Shown here piece by piece: positions 16,753 through 29,683 of a stretch of DNA of 36,601 bases. Under the pieces are notes generated by a model. The model ran no database searches. It was not told the DNA's origin and was given only the letters and a program-made list of their open reading frames with translations. A program made the position numbers and the translations under genes. Position 1 is the stretch's first letter; the number at the start of each line of letters is the position of its first letter. The DNA lies in assembly GCA_021373255.1 (NCBI GenBank), contig JAJFTD010000181.1, forward strand, positions 1 through 36,601, in the 5' to 3' direction. Source of the DNA: a bacterium. Lineage in GTDB: Bacteria > Armatimonadota > UBA5829.

Positions 16753-17550
16753 TTAAGCAGCCTCTTCTCGATAATTCGGCAGGACCATCAACGCTTTGAT
16801 GATCTTGTCAGCTTCGTGTTTCTTCAATTCGGATCGTTTGGATACACGTCCTATAACGCCTTTTTGGAAATCATCGTAGTTCCTGCGTGATTCCGGCGAC
16901 GTTCCGAACTTATGGATCTGGAGGTCTTTGATCCGCTCCTGCTGGGCGGGAGTCGATTCGGCCACAGGCTGTTGGCTGGCCCTGCCGCTGGTTGAGGACG
17001 CCTCCACCTGCAGTTCCCTAGGGTTTAACTGTGATGGGTCCCCACCAGCCTGCACCAGTTTCTCAGTGACGGACTCGATAAACGCATCCAGCTCGCTAAG
17101 ATTGCTGAACCTCCTGCGAGACTTGTCATACGGCCACCAAGTCTGCGGCATTCCATATAGATACCTTGCCAGCCCGAAGTGGACCGCGCACCTCTTGAAT
17201 GCATCCGACACAGCTGACTTGAACGGCTCGTCCTCGTCCTGGGCTTCACCAACATCTTCCTTGGTGATACCAAGTATACTCAATTGCCCATGAACAGCCA
17301 CTCTACCTTCGCTCGTTGGGACCGAATTCCAGCTGAAGCTCCAGTTCTCAGGGCCCACAGCCTGGTCCAGACGCGCCATAACCGCGCGCGCATCAACATA
17401 CCACAATAGCATGGCCTGACCGGTGTCGCTCACCGCACCTGGCCTGACACTTATATACTTTCCATCAAAGGGTCTACTCAACTCGGCCTGAATCTGCTCC
17501 CACTTTGGGTCGCGATCGATTGGCCCAGTGTTATTATTTGATTTGGTCAC
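16753..17550 (-). CDS. Rad52/Rad22-family single-strand annealing protein, DdrA-like
   Basis: Rad52-type proteins bind single-stranded DNA ends and anneal complementary strands; DdrA of Deinococcus protects 3' ends after damage. The family core is in residues 20-150: RPFDGKYISVRPG, YVDARAVMARLDQAVGPENWSFSW, then DEPFKSAVSDAFKRCAVHFGLARYLYG, the most diagnostic block. After residue 175 comes a Ser/Gln-rich linker and a small helical domain (PAQQERIKDLQIHKFG...HEADKIIKALM), of the kind added to many phage annealing proteins. GTG at 17550 has AGAGGTGA just upstream. The 265-residue gene lies 19 bp after a coiled-coil gene with its own terminator, so the two form an operon. No exonuclease or phage genes are adjacent. 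Confidence 0.85.
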   Translation of the reverse strand: MTKSNNNTGPIDRDPKWEQIQAELSRPFDGKYISVRPGAVSDTGQAMLLWYVDARAVMARLDQAVGPENWSFSWNSVPTSEGRVAVHGQLSILGITKEDVGEAQDEDEPFKSAVSDAFKRCAVHFGLARYLYGMPQTWWPYDKSRRRFSNLSELDAFIESVTEKLVQAGGDPSQLNPRELQVEASSTSGRASQQPVAESTPAQQERIKDLQIHKFGTSPESRRNYDDFQKGVIGRVSKRSELKKHEADKIIKALMVLPNYREEAA

Positions 17551-24270: not shown

Positions 24271-26691
24271 TTGGCCGTGAGTAGAATAGGTGTTCTGCTT
24301 ATAGGGCTGTGCGTGGTTTTCACAGCCACATTAACGGGCGCGTCTGCTGATTGTCCGCTGAACAACCTCAGTTTTGAGGAAGGCACCGATGGCTGGACTA
24401 GATACGAGGCCCCAAACGGCGATATGTTAGGTGCATTGCCGGTCGCAGGTACAGTGACCGGCTCGTCTCCCACGTTCACAATTCTCCCCCCATCAGCCCC
24501 AGCGGATGGCAACAAAGTCTGCGGGCTGGAATCTCACAATACCACTGCCAATGGAGGCGTCTGCCAGTCATTTAATTGGCCGGACGGACCTGTGGAGATA
24601 GTCGTTTCTCAATACGTCAATTTTGAGCTTGATGGCTTTCCGCTGAGTAATGGCTGTTATGTGCGCCTAGGGCTTGCCAATGGAATGAATGCAGATCGAA
24701 CCGATGTCTGGCAGTGGGTAGATGCGGGTTGGAACAATACCCCAGGATGGTCGGATGTCTCGCTGCAAGTTCCGGGTTATAACGCATATACTCTGTTCAT
24801 AGAAGCCGTTCAGCCAACAATCAATTCGTATATGATACCATCATACAACGACGTAAAAATGTCCACGCTTTGGGACAACGTCCGATGGAAGCCGATTCTG
24901 CAGATAGAGTCTATACAAGCGCCTATCGTCCCCGGTGATGAGTTGCGCCCGGATACCACCGCTACCATCAAATGGACTACCAGCAACAAGAGCACTTCTC
25001 GCGTGGAATATGGTTTTGATACAAACTATCCACTGCACGTGGACAGCTCTGAAAAGGTGATGGACCATACTATTCTGCTGGAAAATCTAGTGCCTTCCCG
25101 CACATATCACTACAGGGTCATCAGCACATTGGACGGTGTTCCTGATGCTGTCTCAGGAGACCGCACGTTTACCACTCCTATAGGGTTTTCCAATATAAAT
25201 GTAACCACCGAGGGCTTGAGAAACATAATAACATGGACTACCGACAGACCCTCGACCGGGCAAGTGGCATACGGCCTATCAATGTCATATGGCAGCACAA
25301 CTGCGCTGGATCAGAACACCTCCACCACACATCGTGCGGAGATTACTGGCCTGAGTCCATTGACAGTGTATCATTTCAAGCTCCTTGCCACGGCTACAGG
25401 CTATAATTCCGTTTCATCGGCTGATCAGACATTCACAACTATTGCTGCACCAAGTACATCGCTCTTGAACCCAAGTTTCGAGGATGGCCTCAACCATTGG
25501 GTGCAATACTCTACGTCTTATGGCGATATCATTCATCCGATTGATGGATTGGTGGGCCCATTTCCATCCAATGGTACCACTCGTTGGTCCAACGGCGCGT
25601 TTCGCGCCTGGGATGGCTCATATTTCATCGGAGCTCAGGCTGAAGGGACTTTTAAGAGCGGTGGCGTATATCAAAGAGTTCTATGGCCAGCCGGCACACC
25701 TTGTGCCTTGTGCGCCCGCATGGCAACGTATGTGTTGGGCAGCAGCGGTACTACAAATGTAAGAATCGGCATTGATCCCAATGGTGGCATAAATCCTGAG
25801 GCGGGGGGTATCAAATGGTGGATGGGCAGTTCGTCTACTAATGACGATCGCTGGTATCCCGGCGGTGTAATCGCTACTGCAGGCGCAGAAGGGATCGTTA
25901 CGCTCTTTCTTGACATAAGCCAGCAGGATTCAGTTGCCCAACGCGTCTGCGCCATCGATGATGCAACGTTCGGTGCGCCTATCGTTACAGATGTCACCTC
26001 GTTGAAGTCCAATAAACACTGTAAAGGTTTTACCCTCCAGAACAAGGTGGTGACTCAAGTCCAGCCACAAGCAGTGATCTATGAAGGGTTACCCTACTAC
26101 AGGGTTTATGTGCAGGAAAGCACTGTCCCCGCAGGTCTAGCCATACTCTGTGATTGTAATGCGTCCAACTTGCCTCAACCAGGCGATAAGATTACGGTAA
26201 CCGGCACTTTAATGGTTATGCAGGGAGAGGCGACGCTGCTTGCAAATGATTGGAATGTGACTCCTGGGCCGTTTGATATCCCGAATGCCTATGGTATGTC
26301 GCAGCGCTCGATAGGTGGCATGACCTCCAACCAGCCATCATTCTATGCTTCCACTGGGTTGTGCAATGTGGGTTCCAGAATGCGGTTATGGGGCAAAGTT
26401 ACTGATTCTGTTATGGATTATTATAACAACACTATCACAGTCTACTTTGATGATGGCTCCGGCCTGCAGGCTGATCCCTATACGCCGCTTGGTGTCAGGG
26501 CTACACTGATGAGTAATGGGCCTGTGGAAGTAAATGTAGGTGACTTTATCGCCGCCACTGGTGTGTTGGGCATTGAACTTGTAGATCCAGATTACACACC
26601 CAATTCCCATGATGAATTCCTCTCCTACATCCTGGCAACAAGTGCTTCTACCGATTGGGATGTTCTTTATCACGCTTCTCAGCTTCAATAA
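24271..26691 (+). CDS. Secreted modular protein: CBM-like, fibronectin-III-like and OB-fold domains
   Basis: The 806-residue protein starts at TTG 24271 with AGGAGG eight bases upstream and has a signal peptide ending near GASAD. Modules: a beta-sandwich beginning NNLSFEEGTDGWTRYEAPNGD (30-205), two FN3/purple-acid-phosphatase-N-like domains (about 210-300 and 305-395; SRVEYGFDT...YHYRVIST and GQVAYGLSM...YHFKLLAT), a second sandwich beginning NPSFEDGLNHWVQYSTSYGD (about 400-570), and two OB-fold-like domains (580-680 and 690-790; GLAIL...GDKITVTGT and YFDDGSGL...GDFIAATGV). The two sandwiches are clearly duplicates and look like carbohydrate-binding modules. No membrane anchor or sorting signal is found at the C-terminus. 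A role in binding polymers outside the cell is inference. Confidence 0.82.
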   Translation: MAVSRIGVLLIGLCVVFTATLTGASADCPLNNLSFEEGTDGWTRYEAPNGDMLGALPVAGTVTGSSPTFTILPPSAPADGNKVCGLESHNTTANGGVCQSFNWPDGPVEIVVSQYVNFELDGFPLSNGCYVRLGLANGMNADRTDVWQWVDAGWNNTPGWSDVSLQVPGYNAYTLFIEAVQPTINSYMIPSYNDVKMSTLWDNVRWKPILQIESIQAPIVPGDELRPDTTATIKWTTSNKSTSRVEYGFDTNYPLHVDSSEKVMDHTILLENLVPSRTYHYRVISTLDGVPDAVSGDRTFTTPIGFSNINVTTEGLRNIITWTTDRPSTGQVAYGLSMSYGSTTALDQNTSTTHRAEITGLSPLTVYHFKLLATATGYNSVSSADQTFTTIAAPSTSLLNPSFEDGLNHWVQYSTSYGDIIHPIDGLVGPFPSNGTTRWSNGAFRAWDGSYFIGAQAEGTFKSGGVYQRVLWPAGTPCALCARMATYVLGSSGTTNVRIGIDPNGGINPEAGGIKWWMGSSSTNDDRWYPGGVIATAGAEGIVTLFLDISQQDSVAQRVCAIDDATFGAPIVTDVTSLKSNKHCKGFTLQNKVVTQVQPQAVIYEGLPYYRVYVQESTVPAGLAILCDCNASNLPQPGDKITVTGTLMVMQGEATLLANDWNVTPGPFDIPNAYGMSQRSIGGMTSNQPSFYASTGLCNVGSRMRLWGKVTDSVMDYYNNTITVYFDDGSGLQADPYTPLGVRATLMSNGPVEVNVGDFIAATGVLGIELVDPDYTPNSHDEFLSYILATSASTDWDVLYHASQLQ

Positions 26692-26748: not shown

Positions 26749-28119
26749 CTATTTCTTTACTGCTTTGGCGGTCGTCTTGAGTTTATCTAGTGTATTCTTA
26801 GGCAAGATGCCCATCTTCACTTTCATCACCTTCACTGCTTCGTTGAGCTGAACATCATACTTCGGATCCATCGGATCGTAATCATCCTGCTTGGCCTTCG
26901 GTAGTTTCGCTATCACCGTTTCCGGGTCAGGCTGCTCAACAAAGTAATCCGGGGATATACCCTTATGGTGTATATCAGTGCCGTTGGGCGTTAGGTACTT
27001 CGCAGTCGTGATGGCGACCGCTGAGCCATCCTGCATAGGCATGATGGTTTGCACCCGTCCCTTGCCGAATGTTACCGTTCCCACCAGCGTTCCAGACTTC
27101 GTGTCCTTAATTGCGCCCGACACGATTTCCGACGCGCTGGCGCTGCTCTTGTCCACCAGAACCACCAGCGGGTAACGCTTGTGGTTGTGCTTCTCTTCCT
27201 CAACATACAGCGGGTTCTTTCGCCCGCCGCGTTCCTGGATAATTACCACAGGTCCGCTGTTGATAAAGCGGCTGCCTATGTCAACAGCCACTTGCAGCAG
27301 TCCACCGGGGTTACCGCGCAGGTCAAGGATCAAACCCTTGATATGTTTCTTCTCGAGTGCGGTCATAGCATCATTGAATTGCGGGTCGCTCTGCTCATTG
27401 AACTGATAAAGCCGTATGTAACCTATGCCGTTCTTCGGGTCAGCCATCATCGACTTGACCATCTGGAACTGCACGATCCGCCGCGTGATTACCACATTCA
27501 TCGGTTTGGTCCGGCCTGGACGCCGCATTGTCAACTTGACCTTGGTCCCCTCGGGGCCACGGATCAATTTGACTACATCCTCTATGTCCATGCCTTTGAT
27601 AATTTTATCATCCACCGCAGTGATAACATCATTGGTCTTCACTCCGGCGGTGATAGCGGGAGTGTTAGGTAGAGGCTCCTTTACGAATATCTCACCCTTT
27701 TTGTTGGTGTCGAGTTGAGCGCCTATGCCTATGAAGTTGCCCTCGTTCTCCTCGCGCATCTTCTTGTATTCATCGGGGTCAAGGAACCGTGTGAATGGAT
27801 CTCCCAGTGCGTGCAGTACACCTCTGATGGCGCTGTAGGTGAGTTCCCGCTCATCTACTTTGCTGCCGTAGTAGTCCGACTTCAGTCGCTCCATAACTTC
27901 CGAGTAGGTATCGATCAACGGAAGTGCATTAGCGTCAGAGTTACTTTCTGTGCGTGCTCCGGCATACTCCAGCCTCTGCGGCAGTAGTTCCAGGCTGGCA
28001 ATCCACTTGGACAAGCTAAACCCGCTGGCGCTGACATCGGGCGCCGTAAATCCGAACATAAATGCCGCAAACATCGTAAATACAAGCGGTATTATTATCT
28101 CAATCCGCAGCTTTTTCAT
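26749..28119 (-). CDS. ctpA: Carboxyl-terminal processing protease, S41 family, active type
   Basis: CtpA/Prc proteases cut proteins near their C-terminus in the periplasm. The 456-residue product has an N-terminal signal/anchor (residues 5-25), a leading helical region with YSAIRGVLHALGDPFTRFLDPDEYKKM, a PDZ domain (about 128-205; GIGAQL, ITAGVKTNDVITAVD), and the protease core with GYIRLYQF and LDLRGNPGGLL. The catalytic set is complete: Ser328 in SSASASE, Asp339, and Lys353 in FGKGRVQ, with the same spacing (11 and 14) as Ser430/Asp441/Lys455 of E. coli Prc. It is the second gene of a pair; its ribosome-binding site GAGGAGC overlaps the end of the upstream paralogue, five bases apart, so translation is coupled. 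Confidence 0.93.
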   Translation of the reverse strand: MKKLRIEIIIPLVFTMFAAFMFGFTAPDVSASGFSLSKWIASLELLPQRLEYAGARTESNSDANALPLIDTYSEVMERLKSDYYGSKVDERELTYSAIRGVLHALGDPFTRFLDPDEYKKMREENEGNFIGIGAQLDTNKKGEIFVKEPLPNTPAITAGVKTNDVITAVDDKIIKGMDIEDVVKLIRGPEGTKVKLTMRRPGRTKPMNVVITRRIVQFQMVKSMMADPKNGIGYIRLYQFNEQSDPQFNDAMTALEKKHIKGLILDLRGNPGGLLQVAVDIGSRFINSGPVVIIQERGGRKNPLYVEEEKHNHKRYPLVVLVDKSSASASEIVSGAIKDTKSGTLVGTVTFGKGRVQTIMPMQDGSAVAITTAKYLTPNGTDIHHKGISPDYFVEQPDPETVIAKLPKAKQDDYDPMDPKYDVQLNEAVKVMKVKMGILPKNTLDKLKTTAKAVKK

Positions 28120-28124
28120 TGCGT

Positions 28125-29507
28125 TTAGCTCCTCTGTCCGCCGGAAGCAAGCAGCTTAACGGCTTCTTTCAATTGTATATCATCCGATCCGGACCCTACT
28201 TGAACATCTACCTTGATACCCTTGCCGGTGTAATCCGTGCCTGCGGAGGTGAGAAACTTACCTGTGGTCATAATTACTGCGGAGCCATCCGGTTGTTCAA
28301 TAAATGTTGTGTAAGCGGAATCTCCATAAGTGGTCTCGCCTACTAGTCGCCCTGCTCTGCTATCCTTCACTACTGATGCGATGAGCTCTGAAGTGCGAGC
28401 TGTGCCCGAGTTCACAAGCACCACCAGTGGCTCGTGCCAGATGTCCTCGCTGCTGACAGAAGGAATATTAATACTCGATTTTCTGTCCCTCGACTTCACC
28501 ACGTAAGCTAGTCTCTTACCAGGAGTGAGATCAGCGGCCACTTGCAAAGCCGAATCAACTTCCCCGCCTGCGACGTCGCGCAGATCAAGCACAAGGCCTT
28601 TGGTTTTCTTTGCTTTCAAATTCTGAACCGCACTGGTGAATTGCTCGCCGGTCTTGCGGCCGAGGAAGTTGATTTTGATGTATCCAAATGCACCGTTTTC
28701 GATCACGGAACTAGCTACCGGTTCAACCATGAACACCTTGGGTTCGAGCTTGACCTTGATCTCTTTGGGCGAACCCTTGCGGACTACTGTCAGGTCAACG
28801 TTGTCCTTGTCCTTGGTGGTAAGCTGGTCCATCGCCTCGGTGATCAGCATGCCGTTGTCCAGTCGCTTTTGCTCTGACTCTAGTTCTTTGCGAAGAATGA
28901 GTCGGTTTGTCTTACCGTTGCGACTGTCTTTGATTATTTTGTTGGCTCTCTGGTATGGGTCGAATGGCAGCACATTTTTACCATTCACCGCCACTATATC
29001 GTCCCCGGCTTTAAGGCCGGCTGCGGCGGCTGGTCCACCCGGGATTGGGGATATCAATAGCAGGTGTTCTTCGGTGATACCGTTGGATTTGATTCGTTTG
29101 ATGCCGAGAACTGCACCCACACCGTGGAATTTGCCTTCCTGAGCATCATCTATTACCTTGTTTCCATCGGCGTCTACAAACCGGGTATTGACGTCGTTTA
29201 GCGAGCCAAGCATTACCTTGAGGGCGTCGTGAGTCATTTTGCCCTCGTCTTTTGGGGTAAGCTGCTCAACGTAGTGCTCTCGCAGGTTCTTAACTACACT
29301 GTATAGCGTCTCAATGGGCTTGAAATCGATGTTGGCTGCACCCTGCAGCCCAACGGAGGCGATCTGTGTTCCCGGCGCAAGCACCGGTGCGCTCTGCTGC
29401 GCTTGGGCAGCTTGCTCGTGAGTAATACTGTTCAACCTCATTCTATAACCTGAGGTGAAACACAGCGCAACCAGCAAGCCTATAGCGATTTTATGAATAG
29501 TCCGCAT
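28125..29507 (-). CDS. S41-family pseudoprotease paralogue lacking catalytic Ser and Lys
   Basis: The 460-residue product has the same layout as the gene after it: signal/anchor (residues 5-20), a helical lead with MTHDALKVMLGSLNDVNTRFVDADGNK, a PDZ-like domain (about 128-250; GVGAVLGI, AAGLKAGDDIVAVNG), and an S41 core with GYIKINFLGRKTGEQF and LVLDLRDVAGGEV. When aligned on the SELIASVVKD block, the nucleophile position is Arg371 (TARTSE instead of SASASE) and the Lys position is Asp396 (YGDS instead of FGKG); only Asp382 remains. The PDZ domain also carries an insert of about 45 charged residues. The frame is intact and the fold appears kept, so a regulatory or adaptor role is likelier than decay. 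GAGGG precedes the ATG. It is the first gene of the operon. Confidence 0.88.
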   Translation of the reverse strand: MRTIHKIAIGLLVALCFTSGYRMRLNSITHEQAAQAQQSAPVLAPGTQIASVGLQGAANIDFKPIETLYSVVKNLREHYVEQLTPKDEGKMTHDALKVMLGSLNDVNTRFVDADGNKVIDDAQEGKFHGVGAVLGIKRIKSNGITEEHLLLISPIPGGPAAAAGLKAGDDIVAVNGKNVLPFDPYQRANKIIKDSRNGKTNRLILRKELESEQKRLDNGMLITEAMDQLTTKDKDNVDLTVVRKGSPKEIKVKLEPKVFMVEPVASSVIENGAFGYIKINFLGRKTGEQFTSAVQNLKAKKTKGLVLDLRDVAGGEVDSALQVAADLTPGKRLAYVVKSRDRKSSINIPSVSSEDIWHEPLVVLVNSGTARTSELIASVVKDSRAGRLVGETTYGDSAYTTFIEQPDGSAVIMTTGKFLTSAGTDYTGKGIKVDVQVGSGSDDIQLKEAVKLLASGGQRS

Positions 29508-29522
29508 CTAGTCCCTCATAAC

Positions 29523-29550
29523 AAAAAATGCCGGGATTAACAGCCCCGGC
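29523..29550 (-). terminator. Intrinsic terminator within the S41 operon leader
   Basis: On the minus strand GCCGGGG (plus 29544-29550) pairs with CCCGGC (29530-29535), followed by six T (29523-29528). It ends only about 15 bases before the start codon at 29507 and downstream of the operon's own promoter, so it is placed to attenuate the operon. An alternative stem GAGCGCC/GGCGCTC (29548-29554 with 29580-29586) overlaps its 5' arm by three bases. Confidence 0.7.
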
Positions 29551-29655: not shown

Positions 29656-29683
29656 ATTATACCACACAGAGTCCACGTGTCAA
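29656..29683 (-). promoter_or_regulatory. Consensus sigma-70 promoter of the S41 operon
   Basis: On the minus strand TTGACA (29678-29683) and TATAAT (29656-29661) are separated by 16 bp, both boxes perfect. Transcription should start near 29649, giving a leader of about 140 bases. Confidence 0.85.

Follow-up and report, generated by a model that had tools for sequence, protein, structure and literature searches.

An inactive paralogue encoded directly upstream of an active S41A C-terminal processing protease in families of the Armatimonadota

The closest described relatives of the gene pair reported here are C-terminal processing proteases (CTPs) of the S41A group, such as CtpB from Bacillus subtilis, D1P, and the CtpA proteins of P. 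aeruginosa and H. pylori, which the pair resembles in fold and in domain order (N-terminal helices, PDZ, cap/core). In CtpB the catalytic triad is Ser309-Lys334-Gln338, with Gln338 as the third catalytic residue, the PDZ carboxylate loop is Gly113-Ala116, and Arg168 is the substrate sensor; the protein has N- and C-terminal dimerisation motifs, and the dimer is essential for function (PMC3808539). Known CTPs dimerise via their N-terminal helices (PMC3808539). Some of these proteases have a dedicated partner. Prc and CtpA degrade cell-wall hydrolases, NlpI and LbcA bring such cell-wall substrates to them, and LbcA activates only one protomer of the CtpA dimer (PMC11021448). NlpI and LbcA both belong to the TPR lipoproteins and have no relation to the protease, whereas the putative partner described below is itself an inactivated copy of the protease. 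Inactive paralogues alongside active protease subunits are known from the plastid ClpR and other inactive CLP subunits and from the FtsHi pseudoproteases (PMC6508832, PMC8197885). These belong to unrelated protease families, and the mixed CLP core has been established experimentally, whereas the complex of dead and live S41 proteins is one that we infer. In bacteria, the Csp pseudoproteases CspC:CspA of Clostridioides difficile are likewise kept for signalling in a heterodimer (PMC12880746); unlike the S41 pair, they belong to a different protease family and serve germinant sensing. Dead/live protease pairs are thus already known in other families (CLP, FtsHi, Csp), but the S41 case is without precedent in the open-licence literature searched, where no description of a dead/live S41 pair or of a dead S41 partner was found.

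The window analysed here is a stretch of 36,601 nucleotides from a bacterium of the phylum Armatimonadota. It contains two S41 genes arranged head to tail on the minus strand, and these make up the whole S41 complement found in the 4.19-Mb genome. The upstream gene, P0001 (28125..29507), encodes a protein of 460 aa with a putative N-terminal membrane anchor, N-terminal helices, a PDZ domain with an insert, and an S41 core with a dead active site. The downstream gene, P0002 (26749..28119), encodes an intact S41A CTP of 456 aa with Ser328/Lys353/Gln357; in the following the two are called dead and live. Only 5 nt lie between the P0001 stop and the P0002 ATG, and the 3' end of P0001 contains AGAGGAG (28129..28135, minus strand), which resembles a Shine-Dalgarno sequence for the live gene. 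Matches to consensus on the same strand are a sigma-70 promoter, TTGACA-16-TATAAT with 12/12 positions and an extended -10 (29656..29683, ~150 nt upstream of P0001), and an intrinsic-terminator-like hairpin of 13 pairs followed by a T tract just 3' of P0002 (26694..26724). The nearest long ORFs on either side run in the opposite orientation, and therefore the pair is probably its own operon in this genome. A GC-rich hairpin followed by a T run (29530-29550, minus strand), between the promoter match and the P0001 start at 29507, resembles a leader terminator or attenuator. On the plus strand, a gene convergent with the live one (24271-26691) encodes a large, secreted-looking protein with purple-acid-phosphatase N-terminal/fn3 domains, and a relative of this protein adjoins the pair in several genomes of the window's family (cluster c7). 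Further away, a Rad52/Rad22-family protein (Pfam 51 bits) is encoded at 16753-17550 on the minus strand of this bacterial chromosome contig.

Both proteins match Peptidase_S41 and PDZ in Pfam, P0001 with 117 bits to PF03572. No other domain is matched in P0001, and it contains no TPR repeats, unlike the TPR adaptors NlpI and LbcA. The best solved relatives of P0002 are CtpB, CtpA and D1P, and P0002 scores 356 bits against TIGR00225 (prc), above the cut-off of 218.6 bits. With the Ser-Lys dyad and the Gln also in place, P0002 is an ordinary C-terminal processing protease and an ordinary member of the S41A CTPs. P0001 scores 176.8 bits, below the cut-off, and lacks the dyad, and would thus not count as an active S41A peptidase. 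By fold and ancestry it does belong there, with a PDZ domain and an S41 core, homology to CTPs over nearly its full length, and the fold of the group. HMMER alignments of P0001 to the solved D1P and P. aeruginosa CtpA place T-A-R-T-S-E over S-A-S-x-S-E and YGDSA over FGKGxVQ, without gaps in either case, and the alignment of all relatives agrees on the catalytic positions. The live residues Ser328, Lys353 and Gln357 correspond to Arg371, Asp396 and Thr400 of the dead protein, while Asp339 is kept as Asp382. Computed from the ORFs, the codon of Arg371, which aligns without gaps to the catalytic Ser of D1P, CtpA and the live relatives, lies at 28395..28397 and the aligned Asp396 codon, at the catalytic Lys position, at 28320..28322; the catalytic Ser328 and Lys353 codons of P0002, placed by alignment, are at 27136..27138 and 27061..27063 (all minus strand). 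The initial annotation had read the active-site residues of P0001 as replaced (Arg371/Asp382/Asp396 against Ser328/Asp339/Lys353), and the gap-free alignments bear this out, as the ORFs and alignments do its coordinates and residue numbers. An alignment that puts a Ser and a Lys into the active site of P0001, which would have spoken against it, was not seen.

The dead protein also departs from the S41A pattern in its PDZ domain. The carboxylate-binding loop, Gly129-Ala132 (29112..29123, minus strand), is equivalent to Gly113-Ala116 of CtpB and is conserved across the dead clade. The sensor Arg (Arg168 in CtpB, Arg187 in the live protein) is lost in P0001; among 95 dead/live pairs from the phylum, 94 live partners carry Arg or Lys here, but only eight dead proteins carry Arg. 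About residues 180-218 of P0001 (28854..28970, minus strand) form an insert of ~38 residues (41 vs 3 residues), modelled as a helical hairpin with helices 184-196 and 202-218. It is found in the dead proteins of 21 of 22 families and in no live partner. An insert of about 45 residues had originally been proposed; the insert is real, but it divides into these 38 residues and about 7 by which a second PDZ loop of P0001 is longer. The dead proteins of one family, f6 (as in L050 3348-4805), are without the insert, which was either lost there or gained after f6 split off. An AlphaFold model of P0001, made from an alignment of 8 sequences (the window's proteins and six related loci; mean pLDDT 68), is S41A-like, with Z 27.0 to D1P and H. 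pylori CtpA and about 26 to CtpB (VIA-align Z 25-27). The N-terminal helix region, which is the dimerisation region in known CTPs, is kept in both P0001 and P0002. The fold search also matched the related fold of the S41-related module of IRBP (retinol-binding protein 3). IRBP serves binding rather than proteolysis; it is a vertebrate protein, is not paired with an active S41 protease, and differs in function from the dead protein. S41A assemblies contain a single type of protease subunit, unlike a pair in which one member lacks the Ser, Lys, Gln and sensor Arg and carries a PDZ insert, although it aligns with CTPs over most of its length.

To look for the same pair in related genomes, a profile was built from 26 dead orthologues and run on 291 genomes from the phylum; for about 120 genomes the DNA was extracted, the S41 frames were collected and aligned, and the catalytic columns were read. 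When a pair is counted as one locus with a Ser+Lys protein and an inactive protein, 95 pairs are found, distributed over 22 families. In all 95, the two genes share a strand and the inactive one lies upstream, and because this order is shared without exception, the arrangement is far from chance. The absence of Ser+Lys from the upstream proteins is partly built into the counting rule, and the independent statement of it is the clade in the tree described below. Wherever a contig holds both positions, no dead gene without a live neighbour was found; in a few genomes dead and live genes are on separate contig ends. Several relatives have the two genes in one frame with a single stop between them. 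Only active S41 genes were found in 12 other families examined (f9, f12, f13, f14, f18, f19, f22, f23, f24, f26, f35 and f36), and f36 has two neighbouring active copies. Live proteins that have a dead partner were compared with those that lack one, and no sharp signature distinguished the two groups.

The residues that replace the dyad are far from uniform. At the Ser position the 95 dead proteins have Asn (32), Gly (29), Arg (17), Ser (12), Lys (3), Ala (1) or Asp (1), and at the Lys position Asp (73), Leu (6), Glu (4), Asn (4), Ser (2), or Thr, Arg, Gln, Met and Ala once each; one dead protein retains the Lys but has Gly for Ser. In f1, the family of the window, the combinations are Arg/Asp (10), Lys/Asp (2) and Lys/Asn (1). 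Arg or Lys facing an acid or amide in these f1 proteins suggests a salt bridge that may replace the dyad. The dead proteins of f31 (L144, L145, L146, L155, L156 and L157) have Arg at the Ser position and a hydrophobic Leu or Met at the Lys position. As read from these alignment columns, the conserved feature is inactivity, not a particular residue pair. Arg and Asp themselves are not conserved across the phylum: Arg characterises the genus and family of the window, position 371 is elsewhere Asn, Gly, Ser or Lys, and 396 is Asp in 73/95.

Outside the phylum, the dead-clade profile was run on 199 genomes of the phylum of a Paenibacillus relative and on 198 of the Chlorobaculum phylum. The latter sample, which held no positive control, gave no match at a strict threshold, one too stringent for dead-type proteins as divergent as those of f16 (E about 1e-45). 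The sole full-length strong match outside the phylum, L170 1456-2775 (G335), is an active CtpB-like protease without the dead-clade PDZ insert and was rejected as a pseudoprotease. It has a charged insertion of ~35 residues in its PDZ region and an unusually high score with the dead-clade profile. Scans of viral contigs with P0001 and P0002 gave no relatives. It is likely, from these profile searches, that the dead clade is restricted to the phylum.

In a tree of 217 sequences all 95 dead proteins form one clade with support 1.0 that excludes every active S41 protein, and within this tree-defined clade Ser and Lys never occur together in one protein. Every family represented at least twice forms a monophyletic group, except f1 among the dead proteins and f20, with its extra copy, among the live ones. 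The groupings f16+f31, f10+f21 with f6, f7+f20, and f17+f25 are common to the dead and live parts, a pattern that a single ancient duplication followed by vertical co-inheritance would be expected to produce. Pairwise identities of dead and live proteins correlate with r = 0.85, which mostly reflects shared descent and is no evidence of interaction. Parsimony places Gly (Ser position) and Asp (Lys position) at the base of the dead clade, and on this reconstruction the window's own family acquired Arg at 371 later. For f3, f5 and part of f17, where the Ser persists, it would imply either a reversion or a root deeper than the one recovered. The extra active S41 gene of f20 (L070 2243-3646, G043) groups with Paenibacillus, Fibrobacterota and Chlorobaculum proteins and not with its own phylum, which suggests a lateral gain or contamination.

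The duplicate could also be an ordinary one in the course of decay, a pseudogene in progress. The dead protein does evolve faster than the live one (58% vs 75% identity between G000 and G001; 54-73% vs 69-88% within the window's genus). However, the frames are open and full length, the proteins form one clade of phylum-level age, and dN/dS for pairs with finite dS, from Nei-Gojobori counting that is rough where dS is above 1, is 0.04-0.29 for the dead and 0.02-0.21 for the live genes, and 0.04-0.17 for the dead genes when the comparison is limited to live proteins sharing 85% identity or more. Residues conserved in at least 80% of the dead clade are, in the PDZ domain, G129, G131 and A132 of the loop and P159/A160/G164/D169, and in the core D308/R310/G315, T369, E374, G390, G395 and G430. 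The positions of the Ser, the Lys and the sensor Arg vary freely while these PDZ loop and core residues, including the glycines, stay conserved. By these codon and conservation measures the dead clade is clearly under purifying selection, and the dN/dS values therefore do not indicate decay, a reading that the data exclude. The random degradation in relatives that would have contradicted a maintained pseudoprotease was not found, and the proposal of such a protein, made before the relatives were known, is upheld by a single orthologous clade, vertical inheritance, dN/dS far below 1 and the lack of any member with an intact dyad. Judged by this selection, the dead copy is a maintained working part.

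The genomic surroundings give some indication of the pathway. In G026 (f5) the order is ftsE, ftsX, an M23 peptidase with a PcsB coiled coil, dead, live, a polysaccharide deacetylase and a LysM protein, and the deacetylase is found 3' of the live gene in several other pair-bearing families as well. In f18, f24, f26 and f14, which have no dead gene, an M23 gene lies directly upstream of the lone live gene, together with ftsX, and with ftsE in f18, as far as the contig or fetched stretch reaches. In the window's genus and most other families this cell-wall cluster is dispersed and the pair alone stays together. The context ties the pair to a putative role in cell-wall remodelling, as for Prc and CtpA.

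As is usual for a pseudoenzyme partner, the dead protein has lost its catalytic residues with fold and purifying selection kept, and is co-encoded with an active paralogue. The roles initially suggested for it, of scaffolding, inhibiting or delivering substrates to its active partner, may fit best. Of the readings considered, the most likely one, which we hold to be somewhat probable, is that it has no catalysis of its own and serves the live Ctp as a partner subunit or adaptor in a maintained pseudoprotease-protease operon, and our confidence goes no higher because the step from co-inheritance to a complex is one that we infer. A Ctp gene in a cell-wall locus would have duplicated ancestrally, the upstream copy would have lost its Lys (mostly to Asp) and its Ser and gained the helical PDZ insert, and both copies would have been inherited vertically together ever since. 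Secreted and anchored at the outer face of the cytoplasmic membrane, the two proteins may form a heterodimer through the N-terminal helices kept in both. The intact carboxylate-binding loop of the dead PDZ domain may capture the C-termini of substrates, presumably cell-wall hydrolases or their regulators, and the dead subunit would then position or activate the live one, so that one active and one inactive protomer make the working unit. In this arrangement the dead protomer could be the permanently inactive member that holds on to substrate tails. Points against this model are the faster evolution of the dead protein, which indicates less constrained surfaces, the 12 families that keep a live Ctp without a dead partner, so that the live enzyme can work alone, and the broken-up cell-wall cluster in the window's genus.

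The dead protein could instead act on its own as an adaptor or scaffold, with its PDZ domain and insert binding either a cell-wall component or envelope proteins by their C-terminal tails, and with co-transcription reflecting a shared pathway and no stable complex. The PDZ loop is among the best-conserved parts, the insert is the hallmark of the dead clade, other cell-wall proteins occur in the gene context, and Prc and CtpA are served by the separate adaptors NlpI and LbcA (PMC11021448). Such an adaptor is rather unlikely, though, as the whole S41 core and the N-terminal helices, needless for a PDZ adaptor, have been under purifying selection over phylum-level time, and the dead gene is always beside the live gene. 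The same anatomy could suit a built-in inhibitor or decoy that holds the live protease at rest or shields substrates by occupying their C-termini; a PDZ domain without the sensor Arg could bind tails without triggering activation, and possible translational coupling would fix the dead:live ratio. Nothing specific favours this role, which we regard as improbable, since CTPs already self-inhibit via their PDZ domain (PMC3808539) and lineages without the dead gene manage without such an inhibitor. An enzyme with another chemistry at the same site might be read from the Asp at the Lys position (73/95), the Ser kept in 12/95, and the near-invariant Thr369 and Glu374. This is very unlikely because no single set of replacement residues is conserved, with Asn, Gly, Arg, Ser, Lys, Ala or Asp at 371 and Asp, Leu, Glu, Asn or others at 396.

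The partner-subunit reading can be taken further, although more tentatively: the Ctp of this phylum may be an obligate heteromer whose dead subunit is a genome-fixed form of the one-active/one-inactive asymmetry for which CtpA depends on LbcA, and a protease-derived substrate receptor replacing a TPR adaptor, with its origin in an FtsEX-PcsB cell-wall-hydrolysis locus. We see this as possible but doubtful. Routine annotation would label both genes as S41 family peptidase, and the pair is thus easily missed. Cell-wall hydrolases are under the control of CTPs, and work on what determines the activity of these proteases and their choice of substrates has mostly concerned TPR adaptors. An ancient, phylum-wide dead copy is a natural experiment on which parts of the fold (the PDZ loop, the N-terminal helices and the core glycines) matter without catalysis, and the pair predicts an asymmetric protease that can be tested.
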